A DNA stretch of 64,000 nt, from positions 62,001 to 126,000 of the forward strand of contig NZ_RRYH01000005.1 of NCBI RefSeq assembly GCF_004010155.1. The letters run 5' to 3'. Source of the stretch: Solirhodobacter olei. GTDB taxonomy: Bacteria > Pseudomonadota > Alphaproteobacteria > Rhodobacterales > Rhodobacteraceae. Of this stretch, positions 3,658 to 9,134 are shown one piece after another. The notes under the pieces are model-generated. The model was not told the DNA's origin. It ran no database searches and saw only the letters and a list, made by a program, of their open reading frames with translations. The position numbers were made by a program, and so were the translations under genes. The first letter of the stretch is position 1, and each line of letters begins with the position of its first letter.

Positions 3658-3686
3658 CCCTACGCGGCAGCGCGCCGGATGGATCA
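3658..3686 (-). promoter_or_regulatory. candidate sigma-E promoter for the DUF2177 gene
   Basis: On the minus strand TGATCC (3686 to 3681) is followed by exactly 18 bases and TAGGG (3662 to 3658). The same -35 and spacer occur in the rpoE and FAD-oxidoreductase promoters nearby. The R. sphaeroides sigma-E consensus is recalled as TGATCC-N18-TAAGA. The predicted start is about 12 bases before the ATG, leaving room for the GGAGAC ribosome site. Confidence 0.7.
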
Positions 3687-3779: not shown

Positions 3780-4430
3780 TCAGATACGGAAGACGCGCTG
3801 GAGCAGCCGCGGCACGAGGGCGTTAAAGCGCAGCGGCGCGTCGGTCGCGGCGAGGCAGATGCAGGCCTCTCCCTCCATCGCGATCGGCGTATGTTCCAGA
3901 TCCGGATCGCCCACCTGCACGTCGCCGCGCGCGTATTTGCCGGTGATGTCCTGAAAGGCACCCTGCAGGACCATCGTCATCTCCAGCCCGTTGTGGCCGT
4001 GATCCGGAACCGCCTTGCCGCCGGGGATGTAGAGAAGCCGCACCGACCCCTCCGGCCCCGCGGTCAGGATGGTCTGGCGGATCCCGGCGCCGAGGCTTTT
4101 CCAGCGCGGCGGGCGGCCGCCCAGTTCGGCCATCACTGCGGACGGATAGATCCCGGCGGGTGCGGGGATGGGCATCGCCTCGCGTGGAAGAGCCTCGACG
4201 GAGTCGAGCGCGGCCAGGGTGCGGGCACGGAGATCGGCATCGGGCGCCGCATCGGATGGCAGCGCGTCAAGCGCCGCGCCCGCAAGCGCCTCCTGCGCCT
4301 CGGCCGTCGCGCGGCAGGCATCGCATAGCGACAGATGCGCGGCCACGACAACGGCGAAGGCATGGGGCAGACGGCCGGACACGTAGGCCTGGACGATATC
4401 CTCCGGGATATGATGTTGAACCGGCGGCAT
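3780..4430 (-). CDS. chrR: anti-sigma-E factor ChrR, zinc-binding ASD plus cupin domain
   Basis: Cytoplasmic anti-sigma factor that holds RpoE inactive until singlet oxygen triggers its release. It has 216 residues. The N-terminal zinc anti-sigma domain shows His7 (with His6 beside it), His32, Cys36 and Cys39, the ZAS ligand set of Rhodobacter ChrR shifted by one. The C-terminal cupin domain (about 110-210) keeps a second metal set: His144, His146, Glu150 and His180. All ligands are intact, so it should be a working sensor of the cupin class. The start is 2 bases after the rpoE stop, which fits co-transcription and coupled translation. Confidence 0.93.
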   Translation of the reverse strand: MPPVQHHIPEDIVQAYVSGRLPHAFAVVVAAHLSLCDACRATAEAQEALAGAALDALPSDAAPDADLRARTLAALDSVEALPREAMPIPAPAGIYPSAVMAELGGRPPRWKSLGAGIRQTILTAGPEGSVRLLYIPGGKAVPDHGHNGLEMTMVLQGAFQDITGKYARGDVQVGDPDLEHTPIAMEGEACICLAATDAPLRFNALVPRLLQRVFRI

Positions 4431-4432
4431 GG

Positions 4433-4999
4433 TCAGCGAAGTTCCTTCAGCTCATGGCGCAACCGCTCCAACCCCAGCCGGATGCGCGATTTGATGGTCC
4501 CGAGCGGCACGCCCGTGCGCTCGCGGATCTCTGTGTGGGTCAGATCGCCCAGGAAGGACTGCTCGATCATCTGGCGCTGTTCGGGCGCCAGCTTCTCGAG
4601 TGCCGCGCGCAATGCGCGGGCCTCCTGGTCGAGGGCGAGGGTCTGGGCGGCATCGGTCTCGTCCGCCTCCTCTGGCAGGGCAAGCGCGTCCGGCAGGGGC
4701 CGGCGCTCGCGCCGCAGGTGGTCGATCTGGCGGTTACGGGCGATGCGGTAGATCCAGGCCGAGGCCTGGGCCCGGCTCGGATCGAACTGCCCGGCCTTGG
4801 TCCAGGCGGTCAGCAGCACGTCCTGAACCAGGTCGTCGGCCATGGCCCGGGTCATGCCTGATTTCAGCATCATCGCCGTCAGACGCGGCGCGAAATGGTC
4901 AAAGAGCTTCCCAAACGCCGCGCGGTCGCGGCGATCGCGTACGGCGATCAGCCATTCGGTTGGCGGAGAGAGTGCCCCCGCGATCGCTTCCGGCTCCAT
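4433..4999 (-). CDS. rpoE: ECF sigma factor RpoE (sigma-E, ChrR partner, ECF11 type)
   Basis: Group IV sigma factor of 188 residues. Region 2 runs from FDHFAPRLTAMM through DDLVQDVLLTAWTKAG, FDPSRA and WIYRIARNRQIDHLRRE. Region 4 has the helix-turn-helix DLTHTEIRERTGVPLGTIK then SRIRLGLERLR. An open frame continues upstream to 5149, but that part would cover the divergent promoter region, including the -10 at 5098-5102. ATG 4999 is therefore preferred, giving a leader of about 90 bases. In Rhodobacter this sigma directs the singlet-oxygen response, including its own operon, so autoregulation is expected here. Confidence 0.93.
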   Translation of the reverse strand: MEPEAIAGALSPPTEWLIAVRDRRDRAAFGKLFDHFAPRLTAMMLKSGMTRAMADDLVQDVLLTAWTKAGQFDPSRAQASAWIYRIARNRQIDHLRRERRPLPDALALPEEADETDAAQTLALDQEARALRAALEKLAPEQRQMIEQSFLGDLTHTEIRERTGVPLGTIKSRIRLGLERLRHELKELR

Positions 5000-5097
5000 G
5001 TGCGCGCCCTGCCTGCGCGGCACAGCCCCCCCTCTCCGTCCGAAGACGGCGCTTGGGCCCTGCCCCTTCTGGATGTCTATCCCGCTCAGCATAGCCC

Positions 5098-5126
5098 TTC
5101 TACGCTCAGGGCCAATGGTTGGATCA
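5098..5126 (-). promoter_or_regulatory. sigma-E promoter of rpoE-chrR (candidate)
   Basis: Minus-strand TGATCC (5126 to 5121), an 18-base spacer, then TAGAA (5102 to 5098). Spacing and -35 are identical to the divergent promoter next to it. This supports autoregulation of rpoE-chrR. Confidence 0.75.
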
Positions 5127-5136
5127 CCGGTGATCC
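5121..5136. promoter_or_regulatory. 16-bp perfect palindrome formed by two back-to-back sigma-E -35 elements
   Basis: GGATCACCGGTGATCC is self-complementary over all 16 bases. Each half contains one TGATCC hexamer on opposite strands, with only CCGG-centre bases between them. The two polymerase sites therefore face away from a shared centre. A dimeric repressor could also bind here, but no such protein is implied by neighbours. Confidence 0.8.
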
Positions 5137-5159
5137 GTCGGCTCGACAAAATCGTAATC
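5131..5159 (+). promoter_or_regulatory. sigma-E promoter of the FAD oxidoreductase-DUF1365-methylase-SDR operon (candidate)
   Basis: TGATCC at 5131-5136, 18-base spacer, TAATC at 5155-5159. The predicted start near 5166 gives a leader of about 30 bases with AAGGAAG before ATG 5197. Confidence 0.78.
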
Positions 5160-5196: not shown

Positions 5197-6492
5197 ATGT
5201 CCTTCGATGCCCCGCCAGATCTCAATGGCCCAGTGCCCCGCCGCGTCGCCGTTATCGGCGGCGGCATATCGGGGATGGCGACGGCGCTTCTGCTGGCGCC
5301 CGGGCGTCAGGTGACGCTGATGGAGGCCGAGCCGCGGCTTGGCGGTCATGCCCGCACGGTCGTGGCCGGCAAGCGCGGCGACCAGGCGGTCGATACGGGT
5401 TTCATCGTCTTCAACTATGCCAATTACCCCCATCTGACCCGCCTGTTCGCCGAACTCGACGTGCCGGTCGAGAAGAGCGACATGAGCTTCGGCGCCAGCC
5501 TCGACGGCGGGCGGCTGGAATATGCGCTCCGAAGTCTCCCCGCGCTTTTCGCCCAGAGGCGCAACCTCCTCCGGCCGGGCTTCCTCGCCATGCTGCGCGA
5601 TATCCTGCGCTTCAACGCCGAGGCCGAGGCGCTGGCCGAGAGCCGGCCCGAGATGACGGTGGCGGAACTGACCCGAGCCCTCGGCCTGGGAGAGGCGTTC
5701 CGGCGCAATTACCTGATGCCGATCTGCGGTGCGATCTGGTCGACGCCGGCGGCGGAGGTGGGGGCGTTCCCGGCGAAAAGCCTGCTGCGCTTCTTCCGCA
5801 ACCACGCTCTTCTTTCACCCAAGGGCCAGCACCAGTGGTGGACCGTTTCCGGCGGAAGCGTCGAATATGTCCGCCGCCTATCCGCCCGACTTAAGATGAT
5901 CGGGGTCGAGATCCGCACCTCCTGCCCCGTCCGCAGCGTCAGCCGCGACGAGACCGGCGTGACGATCCGTGCCGAAGGCGGCCTGCCCGAACGGTTCGAC
6001 GCGGTCGTCATGGCCTGCCATTCGGACCAGGCGCTCCACCTGCTGCGCGATCCATCGGCGGCCGAGCTTTCGGCGCTATCGGCGGTGGCCTACCGGCCGA
6101 ACCGCGCCGTCCTTCATGCCGACCCCGGCCAGATGCCGCGCCGCCGGGCCTGCTGGTCCTCCTGGGTCTACCAGTCGGAGCGGCGGGGCGAGAACGCGGG
6201 CGTCGGCGTGACCTACTGGATGAACCGGCTCCAGAACATCCCCGAGAACGATCCGCTTTTCGTCACCTTGAACCCGCAGCGCCCGATCGACCCGCGGCTG
6301 ATCTATAACGAGGTGACGTTCGCCCATCCGGTCTTTGACCGCGCGGCACTGGCGGCGCAGGAGGCGATCTCGGCCATGAACGGCGCGCAGGGCACCTGGT
6401 ATGCCGGGGCCTGGCTGCGCTTCGGTTTCCACGAGGACGGCTTTGCCTCGGCCCACCGCATTGCCCGGGCGATGGCTCAGGTGCAGGCATGA
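5197..6492 (+). CDS. FAD-dependent oxidoreductase, amine-oxidase fold (UfaD-like candidate)
   Basis: Flavoprotein of 431 residues. The dinucleotide fold begins at residue 16 with VAVIGGGISGMATALLL (GGGISG 21-26). An acidic residue ends the second strand (Glu43), followed by the LGGHARTV flavin-contact motif. A C-terminal flavin segment, YAGAWLRFGFHEDGFASA, is also present, so the family fold is complete. It is first in a four-gene operon whose cistrons overlap by 4-8 bases. Relatives sit in ECF/ChrR-controlled clusters. R. sphaeroides UfaD desaturates a methylated acyl chain on phospholipid; I infer this role from the neighbours, not from a diagnostic residue. Ribosome site AAGGAAG precedes the ATG. 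Confidence 0.85.
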   Translation: MSFDAPPDLNGPVPRRVAVIGGGISGMATALLLAPGRQVTLMEAEPRLGGHARTVVAGKRGDQAVDTGFIVFNYANYPHLTRLFAELDVPVEKSDMSFGASLDGGRLEYALRSLPALFAQRRNLLRPGFLAMLRDILRFNAEAEALAESRPEMTVAELTRALGLGEAFRRNYLMPICGAIWSTPAAEVGAFPAKSLLRFFRNHALLSPKGQHQWWTVSGGSVEYVRRLSARLKMIGVEIRTSCPVRSVSRDETGVTIRAEGGLPERFDAVVMACHSDQALHLLRDPSAAELSALSAVAYRPNRAVLHADPGQMPRRRACWSSWVYQSERRGENAGVGVTYWMNRLQNIPENDPLFVTLNPQRPIDPRLIYNEVTFAHPVFDRAALAAQEAISAMNGAQGTWYAGAWLRFGFHEDGFASAHRIARAMAQVQA

Positions 6493-7241
6493 GCGCCTGG
6501 CCCGAACATGTGGCGGGCGAGACCACCCACGCGCGGCGCGGGTCCATCGCACATGCCTTCCGATACCGCACCGATTACGTGCTGATCGACCCCGAGACGC
6601 GGCAGGGACCCTGGCTCTTCTCGCGGAACGCGGTGAACCTCGCTTCGGTCGATGACCGCTGCCATGGCGGGGTCCGCGGTGCAGGCGAAGGCGCCGCCTG
6701 GGCGCGCCGCGCTCTGACCGAGGCGGGCGCGCCGGAGGGGCTGTCGCTCCGTCTCCTCACCCAGCCGCGTTTCCTTGGCGTCTGGTTCTGCCCGGTGAGC
6801 TTCTGGCTGGCCTTCGAGGGCGCGGCGCTGCGCGCCGTGATCGCGGAGGTGTCGAACACCTTCGGCGAGCGCCACTCCTATCTCTGCGCGCGCGAGGGGT
6901 TCGAGCCCATCGGCCCGGCCGATCGGCTGGCCGCGCGGAAGGTGTTCCATGTCTCGCCCTTTCAGGACGTCGCAGGCGGCTACAGCTTCGCCTTCGACAT
7001 CACCGCGGCGCGGATCGCCATCCGCATAGCACTGTCTGACGGGCCCGAGGGCGTGATCGCCACGCTCACCGGCCCGCGCGCGCCGCTCACCAACCGCGCG
7101 ATCCTTGCCGCGGCGCTGCGCCGTCCTTTCGGCCCGCTGCGCACGCTCGCGCTCATCTACTTGAATGCGCTGCGCCTGCGCGCCAAGGGCGCGGCCTACC
7201 GCGCGCGGCCGCTTCCGCCCGCACATGAGGTCAGCCGATGA
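6489..7241 (+). CDS. DUF1365 family protein
   Basis: Protein of 250 residues that begins inside the stop of the upstream flavoprotein (ATGA overlap), so translation is probably coupled. Conserved DUF1365 features as I know them are visible: an early HARRGSIAHAFRYRTDYVLID block, RLLTQPRFLGVWFCPVSFW in the middle, and ARKVFHVSPFQDVAGGYSF towards the end. Length and order of blocks are normal. No cofactor motif is obvious. DUF1365 almost always pairs with an amine-oxidase-like protein and a CFA-like methylase, so it is probably a lipid-modifying enzyme or accessory. It is a candidate for the oxygen-inserting step (UfaO-like), but this is inference. Confidence 0.85.
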   Translation: MSAWPEHVAGETTHARRGSIAHAFRYRTDYVLIDPETRQGPWLFSRNAVNLASVDDRCHGGVRGAGEGAAWARRALTEAGAPEGLSLRLLTQPRFLGVWFCPVSFWLAFEGAALRAVIAEVSNTFGERHSYLCAREGFEPIGPADRLAARKVFHVSPFQDVAGGYSFAFDITAARIAIRIALSDGPEGVIATLTGPRAPLTNRAILAAALRRPFGPLRTLALIYLNALRLRAKGAAYRARPLPPAHEVSR

Positions 7242-8398
7242 TCCCCTTCGCCACCCGCCGCCTGAAACGCGATTTCCTCGACGCCTGCGCCTGCCTTTCG
7301 GAAGGCCGGCTTCGGCTGATCACCCCGGAGGGGGAACGCCATGACTTCGGCAGCGCCGGGCCGGAGGCCGAGATCCACATCAACGACTGGGCCGTGGCAA
7401 GCGCCGTCGCTGCGCGGGGCGATATCGGCTTCGGCGAGGCCTATGTCGCCGGCCTCTGGGACGCCCCCTCGATCGAGGGGGTAGCCTCGCTGGCGCTGAC
7501 GAACCTCTCCCGCCTCGGTCCCGCCGCGTCCCCCGGGGCGTTCCAGCGGCTGAAGCTGCGCGCGATCGACCGGGTGCTGCGCGCCAATTCCCGCCGCGGC
7601 GCCTCGCGCAACATCCGGGCGCATTACGACGTGGGCAACGAGTTCTACCAGCTCTGGCTCGACCGGACGATGACCTATTCCTCCGCCCTCTACGCGCCGG
7701 GCGACGACCTGGAGCGGGCGCAGGCGCGCAAGTACGACCGCATCCTCGACCGCATCGGCCCCTCGGTGGAACGGGTGCTGGAGGTCGGCTGCGGCTGGGG
7801 CGGTTTCGCCGAGCGCGCCGCCGAGAGCGGGCGACATGTCACCGGCCTCACGATCTCTCCCGCCCAGAAGGGCTATGCCGATGCGCGGCTCGACGGGCGG
7901 GCGGAGATCCGGCTGCAGGACTACCGCGACGCGGGCGGGCGGTTCGACGCCGTCGTCTCGATCGAGATGGTGGAGGCGGTGGGCCTGCGCTACTGGCCGA
8001 CCTATTTCGCCATGCTGCGCGAGCGCCTCGCCCCCGGCGGCCGGGCCGTGCTGCAGGCGATCACCGTGCCGGATGCCAATTTCGAGGGCTACTCCCGCCG
8101 CTCGGACTACATCCGCCATCACACCTTCCCGGGGGGCATGCTGCTTTCAGACGCGAGCATCGCCGAACAGGCTCGCCTGGCGGGCATGAAGGTCACCGAC
8201 AACTTCGCCTTCGGCAGCCATTACGCCGACACCTGCCGCGCCTGGGTGGAGCGGCTGGAGGCCGCCGCCCCGCGCATCCGCGCCCTCGGCCGGGGCGAGG
8301 GCTTCCTGCGCAGCTGGCGCTACTACCTGCACATCTGCGCCGCGAGCTTCGCGCTTGGCCGTGCCGACGTGGTGCAGGTGGAGCTGGCCCATGCCTGA
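7238..8398 (+). CDS. CFA-synthase-family SAM methyltransferase, probable non-cyclopropanating (UfaM-like)
   Basis: SAM-dependent methyltransferase of 386 residues acting on unsaturated acyl chains of phospholipids. The SAM site is VGCGWGG (183-189), with HYDVGNEF at 129-136. Compared with E. coli cyclopropane synthase, the bicarbonate-site Cys of YSCAY is Ser here (YSSALY, Ser149), and the His of LLHTIG is Gln (VLQAI, Gln273). The Glu of the MxE motif (Glu246) and the late Tyr (Tyr329) are kept. That pattern argues for a methylating or methylene-forming enzyme rather than ring closure. It overlaps the upstream stop (ATGA) and the downstream start. UfaM of R. sphaeroides is the closest functional model I know. 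Confidence 0.88.
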   Translation: MIPFATRRLKRDFLDACACLSEGRLRLITPEGERHDFGSAGPEAEIHINDWAVASAVAARGDIGFGEAYVAGLWDAPSIEGVASLALTNLSRLGPAASPGAFQRLKLRAIDRVLRANSRRGASRNIRAHYDVGNEFYQLWLDRTMTYSSALYAPGDDLERAQARKYDRILDRIGPSVERVLEVGCGWGGFAERAAESGRHVTGLTISPAQKGYADARLDGRAEIRLQDYRDAGGRFDAVVSIEMVEAVGLRYWPTYFAMLRERLAPGGRAVLQAITVPDANFEGYSRRSDYIRHHTFPGGMLLSDASIAEQARLAGMKVTDNFAFGSHYADTCRAWVERLEAAAPRIRALGRGEGFLRSWRYYLHICAASFALGRADVVQVELAHA

Positions 8399-9134
8399 GG
8401 CCCCCGCTCCCGGCCCGACCCGGGCCGCCTGCTGGTGGATCGTCGGCGCGAGCGAGGGGCTCGGCCGGGCCTTGGCGAAGCGGCTCGACGCCGAGGGCGC
8501 CTCTCTGATCCTCTCGGCCCGCAATGCCGAGCGGCTGGAGGCGCTGGCGGCCGAGTTGCGCGACGCCCGCGCGGTGGTGATGGACGTGACCGACCCGGCC
8601 TCCGTCGGCGCGGCGGTGGCGGAGGCGCGGCCGGTCGACGGGATCATCTATTGTGTCGGCCTCTACACGCCCATGTCGGCGCGGGAGTGGCAGGCGGAGG
8701 CCTCTGTCGCCGTGGCGGAGGCGAATTTCATCGGCGCGCTGCGGGTTCTGGGCGCGGTGGTGCCGGGGTTTTGCGCGCGGGGGGCGGGGCGCGTCATTCT
8801 GATCGGCTCGCTTGCAGGGTTCCGGGGCTTGCCCGGTTCCATCGGCTACGGCGCGAGCAAGGCCGCGCTGATGCACCTGGCCGAGAACATGCGCGCCGAC
8901 CTGCGCGGCACGGGCGTATCGGTGCAGGTGGTAAACCCGGGCTTTATCGACACGCGGCTGACCAAGCAGAACAGCTTCCGCATGCCCTCGATCATGTCGC
9001 CCGAGGCGGCGGCCGAGCGGGTCCATCGCGCAATCCGGCGCCGGCGCTTCGCGACCTCGTTCCCCTACCCGTTTGCGCTGATCTTCCGCGCCGGCCCGCT
9101 GCTGCCGCTGCGGCTGTTCCAGGCGCTGTTCTAG
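8391..9134 (+). CDS. short-chain dehydrogenase/reductase, last gene of the sigma-E operon
   Basis: NAD(P)-dependent SDR of 247 residues. The cofactor loop is WIVGASEGLGRALAKRL; the catalytic Ser lies in LIGSLAGFRGLPGS, and Tyr-Lys in YGASKAAL. The ATG at 8391 overlaps the methylase stop by 8 bases; an upstream start at 8355 would lie deep in the methylase and has no ribosome site. The C-terminus RFATSFPYPFALIFRAGPLLPL is hydrophobic and could contact membrane, fitting a lipid substrate. The stop TAG (9132-9134) shares the CTAG palindrome with the stop of the convergent aminotransferase. The true substrate is unknown. Confidence 0.88.
   Translation: MPEAPAPGPTRAACWWIVGASEGLGRALAKRLDAEGASLILSARNAERLEALAAELRDARAVVMDVTDPASVGAAVAEARPVDGIIYCVGLYTPMSAREWQAEASVAVAEANFIGALRVLGAVVPGFCARGAGRVILIGSLAGFRGLPGSIGYGASKAALMHLAENMRADLRGTGVSVQVVNPGFIDTRLTKQNSFRMPSIMSPEAAAERVHRAIRRRRFATSFPYPFALIFRAGPLLPLRLFQALF

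Follow-up and report, generated by a model that had tools for sequence, protein, structure and literature searches.

The RpoE-ChrR singlet-oxygen response is a model ECF circuit, and the two promoters considered here belong to its well-known targets. In R. sphaeroides, the rpoE-chrR and RSP_1091/1090 operons are both RpoE dependent, and RSP_1090/1091 feed back on the circuit by promoting ChrR turnover (PMC3818230). Furan fatty acids are made by the ufaD and ufaO gene products, an activity established with genes from R. sphaeroides and R. palustris (PMC7380195); the R. sphaeroides operon thus has both a lipid product and a feedback role (PMC3818230, PMC7380195, PMC6852236). The published RpoE/ChrR-type promoter motif is TGATCC-N15-GCGTA or TGATCC-N16-CGTA (PMC5036791, PMC5507510). 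In Shewanella oneidensis, a TGATCC promoter is located at rpoE2 and a TGATCA promoter at SO_1987, which is induced by RpoE2 (PMC4336711).

We analyzed a 64-kb stretch of the Solirhodobacter olei genome (the window) that contains a locus of this kind (Table 1). The locus encodes an ECF11 RpoE-ChrR system: a sigma factor (Sigma70_r2/r4) has a ChrR-type zinc/cupin anti-sigma gene directly downstream and, upstream, the autoregulatory TGATCC-N16-CGTA promoter characteristic of ECF11. The best PDB match of the window RpoE was R. sphaeroides RpoE (2q1z, E = 9.5e-49). On the opposite strand, overlapping open reading frames (ORFs) encode an FAD oxidoreductase, a DUF1365 protein, a CMAS methyltransferase, and an SDR, the first two of which match ufaD-ufaO (RSP_1091-1090) by family and by position adjoining rpoE-chrR. 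By likeness to the R. sphaeroides genes, ufaD-ufaO-cfa-SDR is a putative furan-fatty-acid-type operon. Just beyond chrR, a third exact sigma-E-type promoter (TGATCC-N16-CGTA; 3661-3686, minus strand) was found upstream of a gene (3639-3235) for a DUF2177 membrane protein.

Table 1. Genes, putative start sites, and promoter elements at the rpoE-ufaD locus (window coordinates)
Feature	Position	Strand	Details
rpoE (ECF sigma factor)	4433-5092	minus	proposed ATG 5092-5090; 219 aa
Possible internal rpoE start, GTG	5021-5023	minus	preceded by Shine-Dalgarno-like GGAGAGGGG; would yield short form
chrR, ChrR-family anti-sigma-E factor	3780-4430	minus	TIGR02451, 185 bits (cutoff, 124.5)
ufaD-like FAD amine-oxidase-family protein	5197-6492	plus	PF01593; RSP_1091 position (PMC7380195)
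ufaO-like DUF1365 protein	6489-7241	plus	PF07103; RSP_1090 position (PMC7380195)
CMAS-family fatty acyl methyltransferase (cfaS/ufaM-like)	7238-8398	plus	
Short-chain dehydrogenase (SDR), last gene of operon	8391-9134	plus	overlapping ORFs
GGATCACCGGTGATCC	5121-5136		two sigma-E -35 hexamers back to back, 4-bp center CCGG
rpoE sigma-E promoter	5098-5126	minus	-35 TGATCC 5126-5121, N16, CGTA 5104-5101; -10 TAGAA 5102-5098
ufaD operon sigma-E promoter	5131-5159	plus	-35 TGATCC 5131-5136, N16, CGTA 5153-5156; -10 TAATC 5155-5159

A sequence-only reading of the window had proposed two divergent sigma-E promoters between rpoE and ufaD, TGATCC-N18-TAATC (plus) and TGATCC-N18-TAGAA (minus), and both were present as described (5131-5159 and 5126-5098). 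CG precedes both -10 elements to form CGTA, such that each -35 is followed by N16-CGTA (equivalent to N18-TA). The Rhodobacter consensus invoked in that reading also proved apt, spacing included, since both promoters match the published motif exactly (PMC5036791, PMC5507510). The -35 hexamers do lie back to back in a perfect 16-bp palindrome, as that reading described, but they do not overlap, being separated by CCGG. It is this center that renders the 16-mer perfectly palindromic. A distance of 10 bp, or roughly one turn of the helix, separates the hexamer centers, and the transcription start sites predicted from sequence lie 73 bp from each other; the core elements are therefore near enough for predicted holoenzyme footprints to overlap. 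Motif, neighboring genes, and conservation together showed that both elements have the sequence of sigma-E (ECF11) promoters, one predicted to autoregulate rpoE-chrR and the other to drive ufaD-ufaO-cfa-SDR, and their R. sphaeroides counterparts are RpoE dependent (PMC3818230).

The 16-mer GGATCACCGGTGATCC occurs once in the window, and a match with no more than two mismatches arose in 3 of 100 shuffles. Bare pairs of the form GGATCA-N3-7-TGATCC are common genome-wide, however (family genomes carry about 7 each). The palindrome alone is thus weak evidence; we discarded it as such and tested the whole element instead. TACG-N16-GGATCA-N0-30-TGATCC-N16-CGTA was detected once in the 4.78-Mb genome to which the window belongs and in 55 of 296 family genomes, and the reversed-pattern control of the full divergent element had no matches in any of these genomes. 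Exact single TGATCC-N16-CGTA sites numbered 12 in the window's own genome versus 1 for the reversed control; given 12 such sites, a back-to-back pair with a gap of 0 to 8 bp is expected at random only about 7e-5 times. By eye, other exact sigma-E-type promoters in this genome (G000; L285, L289, and L294) precede methyltransferase-like, response-regulator-like, and secreted fasciclin-like ORFs.

We compared the locus with relatives drawn from a genome collection (80 loci) and from family genomes (140 loci). After removal of identical copies and loci that were too short, 208 rpoE-chrR loci were kept, including the window; R. sphaeroides itself lies outside this set. The ufaD gene was divergent from rpoE in 167 loci, downstream on the same strand in 19, and absent from the stretch in 22. 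Exact rpoE promoters were detected in 160 of the 167 divergent loci and exact ufaD promoters in 96. Where ufaD lies downstream of rpoE, the exact rpoE promoter was retained in 13 of 19 loci and an exact opposing promoter was found in 0 of 19, a natural control that assigns the second half of the palindrome to ufaD.

Allowing at most one departure from the promoter motif, 56 loci had a compact gap of 3 to 8 bp between the -35 hexamers (4 bp in 30 loci, the mode; 5 bp in 16; 7 bp in 6; 3 bp in 2; 6 and 8 bp in 1 each). Gaps of 9 to 12 bp were found in only 3 loci, gaps of 0 to 2 bp were never seen in the family set, and the remainder fell mostly between 13 and 45 bp; in all, the hexamers are at least 11 bp apart in 82 divergent loci. 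The compact layout is thus present in a third of the sampled divergent loci, across dozens of related genera. The related genomes, which the earlier reading had named as a check, therefore preserve the back-to-back layout but not the perfect palindrome: the center of the gap is usually A/T only, most commonly AAAA, and CCGG occurs only in the window and one relative (L009). Gaps are wide in the loci of this set closest to R. sphaeroides (up to 78% identical), measuring 36, 32, and 58 bp in L201, L215, and L207, respectively. Outside the family, one locus (L255) carries a back-to-back sigma-E pair with a 2-bp gap beside a weakly ufaO-like divergent gene.

Spacing in the compact class appears to be constrained. 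The gap was identical or differed by no more than 1 bp between sisters in 19 of 23 compact pairs versus 8 of 34 wide pairs (Fisher's exact test, p = 1.3e-5, which, like the Mann-Whitney tests used here, takes related loci as independent), and the letters of the spacers vary in sister pairs although the compact gap is kept. Conserved helical phase as the sole spacing rule gained no clean support, with a gap of 7 bp in use (6 loci) and a gap of 6 bp rare. Base composition also differed between the classes. Solo and wide promoters carry an UP-element-like A/T block 13 to 19 bp upstream of the -35. In compact loci, the corresponding place falls within the spacer of the opposite promoter, which is A/T rich: A/T content at ufaD spacer positions 2 to 10 was 0.67 in compact loci versus 0.36 (p = 4.5e-11), and that of the rpoE spacer was 0.52 versus 0.37. 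These A/T-rich opposite spacers suggest interlocked polymerase contacts in compact loci. In the window, a clear UP-like A/T block was not evident, its spacer and flanks being G/C rich. Sequence comparison confirms that the back-to-back -35 layout is a promoter arrangement conserved within the established ECF11 circuit.

From this geometry, we infer that the palindrome probably, though by no means certainly, joins the upstream ends of two genuine sigma-E promoters that would be occupied by one holoenzyme at a time, with coupling of both outputs as the regulatory effect. Upon destruction of ChrR under singlet oxygen, the sigma-E holoenzyme would bind either of the two TGATCC hexamers. Contacts made by sigma region 4 at the two hexamers would lie on the same DNA face, because the hexamer centers are about one helical turn apart, and the upstream contact zone of each promoter would fall inside the core of the other, which makes occupancy by one holoenzyme at a time most probable. 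Two holoenzymes reaching upstream of their own -35 elements would most likely collide, such that direction would be chosen at each binding event, and a single platform firing either way would make the expression of both rpoE and the operon depend on the same occupancy event. Promoter geometry therefore makes it likely that two holoenzymes exclude each other, and the retention of the tight layout across genera suggests that RNA polymerase may serve only one side at a time; the idea that the two operons compete or alternate is a reasonable reading of the sequence. Divergent phage lambda promoters PR and PRM, whose starts are about 82 bp apart, slightly further than here, interfere with each other yet may be co-occupied. 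By analogy, polymerases on neighboring divergent promoters may sometimes be bound together, which counts against exclusion. Nor would competition or exclusion be essential to the circuit, because at least 82 divergent loci with separated -35 elements presumably still work.

The most serious alternative, which we regard as possible though clearly the less probable account, is that these are two ordinary coregulated divergent promoters with a short A-tract in common, placed close together through compactness or descent, with little functional coupling and with either or both bound. Wide and compact layouts do coexist within one family, and A/T just upstream of the -35 is also typical of solo promoters, so that sharing it would be economical. 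Compact status is moreover clustered on the RpoE tree, such that inertia accounts for part of the pattern; the compact/wide state requires 15 changes on this FastTree phylogeny, of which its supported branches, support being weak overall, force only about 4 to 5. Descent and compactness do not readily explain, however, why compact gaps stay within 1 to 2 bp between sisters whereas the median drift of wide gaps is 6 bp, a difference that was also significant in matched distance bins, both short and long. Nor are the ufaD leaders shortened in compact loci: their median length is similar in the two classes (21 nt in compact versus 24 nt in wide loci), which places the compactness in the gap itself rather than in a general shrinkage of the region.

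We consider it very improbable that the palindrome is instead the operator of a dimeric regulator, with half-sites 10 bp apart, overlapping the promoters. The dyad is perfect in the window, and a half-site spacing of 10 bp fits a helix-turn-helix dimer. Each half, however, is the sigma-E -35 consensus and persists without the dyad in the 32 solo loci whose rpoE promoter is exact, most relatives lack a palindromic center, and the gap ranges from 3 to 8 bp, where a dimer site should hold its spacing. The variable center and gap and the single -35 elements kept in solo loci led us to reject a dimeric operator; the restriction of CCGG to the window and one relative, when most have AAAA, likewise identifies the dyad as a promoter pair. 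Slimmer still is the chance that only one direction works as a sigma-E promoter and the other is a look-alike. The lower frequency of exact promoters at ufaD than at rpoE points that way, but N16-CGTA is kept on both sides in the window and in compact loci, and both R. sphaeroides operons depend on RpoE (PMC3818230).

The same comparison bears on where rpoE translation begins. Among 194 loci with a clear rpoE promoter, 189 have an in-frame start codon 10 to 13 nt after the -10 T, and in 182 the distance from the first T of the -10 to an ATG is exactly 10 nt, as it is in the window (ATG at 5092-5090). This codon is ATG in all but one of the 189 in-frame starts, and the frame remains open through the conserved RpoE body. 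The 15 to 67 codons that precede the first aligned RpoE residue are poorly conserved in sequence, with the frame kept; in the window, the alignment with 2q1z starts at residue 45 of the window protein and residue 11 of the R. sphaeroides protein, leaving the predicted N-terminal tail without a counterpart in the R. sphaeroides protein of the structure database. A Shine-Dalgarno match precedes the rpoE start in 12% of loci versus about 90% for ufaD. The position of the in-frame start and the scarcity of Shine-Dalgarno matches point to a probable leaderless mRNA transcribed from the sigma-E promoter of rpoE, with a sigma factor extended at its N terminus as the product (from 5092 in the window, 219 aa). 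This start may be a more useful discovery than the promoter spacing: stress-induced RpoE may carry an N terminus unlike that of the previously studied protein, and public rpoE start annotations may differ, with misannotation possible in many Rhodobacteraceae.

Internal Shine-Dalgarno matches of at least 5 nt were detected in frames 0, +1, and +2 in 50, 19, and 5 of the 189 loci, and rpoE core windows were equally rich (0.32 versus 0.28 in the first core window). A general excess of internal rpoE starts over coding controls was thus not demonstrated across the 189 loci; an internal start was suggestive in one group only, where AAGGA holds its place across two codon registers. Early interruption of the ATG reading frame in L201 and L207, both close to R. 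sphaeroides, means that translation there has to begin internally; in L201, the truncated leaderless frame terminates at a TGA that overlaps the GTG start of a short rpoE, which suggests translational coupling. A two-way promoter switch combined with a leaderless long RpoE distinct from a short form made through an internal ribosome-binding start, somewhat like SigR/SigR', is a speculative and rather unlikely extension; if true, about 100 bp of DNA would unite autoregulation, isoform choice, and output.

Together, these results suggest that the palindrome is the joined front end of outward-facing promoters, with a light-stress sigma factor made one way and a membrane-lipid operon the other. 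The single -35 pair seen in a third of the sampled divergent loci points to a possible physical coupling between sigma factor production and expression of the membrane-protection operon. Both promoters are already known in R. sphaeroides; as far as the literature was searched, the compact back-to-back arrangement and its conservation appear to be the new part. The accessible literature held no description of the back-to-back spacing, its conservation, or the leaderless rpoE start, and an earlier account in other R. sphaeroides promoter papers is possible.

Among described systems, the locus most resembles rpoE-chrR/RSP_1091-1087 of R. sphaeroides in its first genes (rpoE-chrR and ufaD-ufaO), in its promoter motif, and in the RpoE dependence established there (PMC3818230, PMC7380195, PMC6852236). 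Unlike RSP_1091-1087, the window operon also includes a CMAS gene and an SDR. The rpoE2-chrR/SO_1987 locus of Shewanella likewise pairs a sigma gene with a neighboring target through TGATCC/CGTA-type promoters, but its partner SO_1987 is a Lon domain protein. Overlapping divergent core promoters with proposed switch behavior have been described for Pc/Pr of plasmid pLS20 (PMC4207663). In contrast to the pair described here, these are very unequal promoters governed by a dedicated regulator and DNA looping rather than two promoters of one ECF sigma factor. For the proposed leaderless RpoE, the nearest parallel is Streptomyces SigR/SigR', in which an autoregulated promoter yields a longer, N-terminally extended form and another promoter the short form (PMC4921905). 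SigR' is analogous to the long RpoE proposed here, with no claim of membership; it differs in having 55 extra residues and separate promoters (p1/p2), whereas the short RpoE form of the window is putative.
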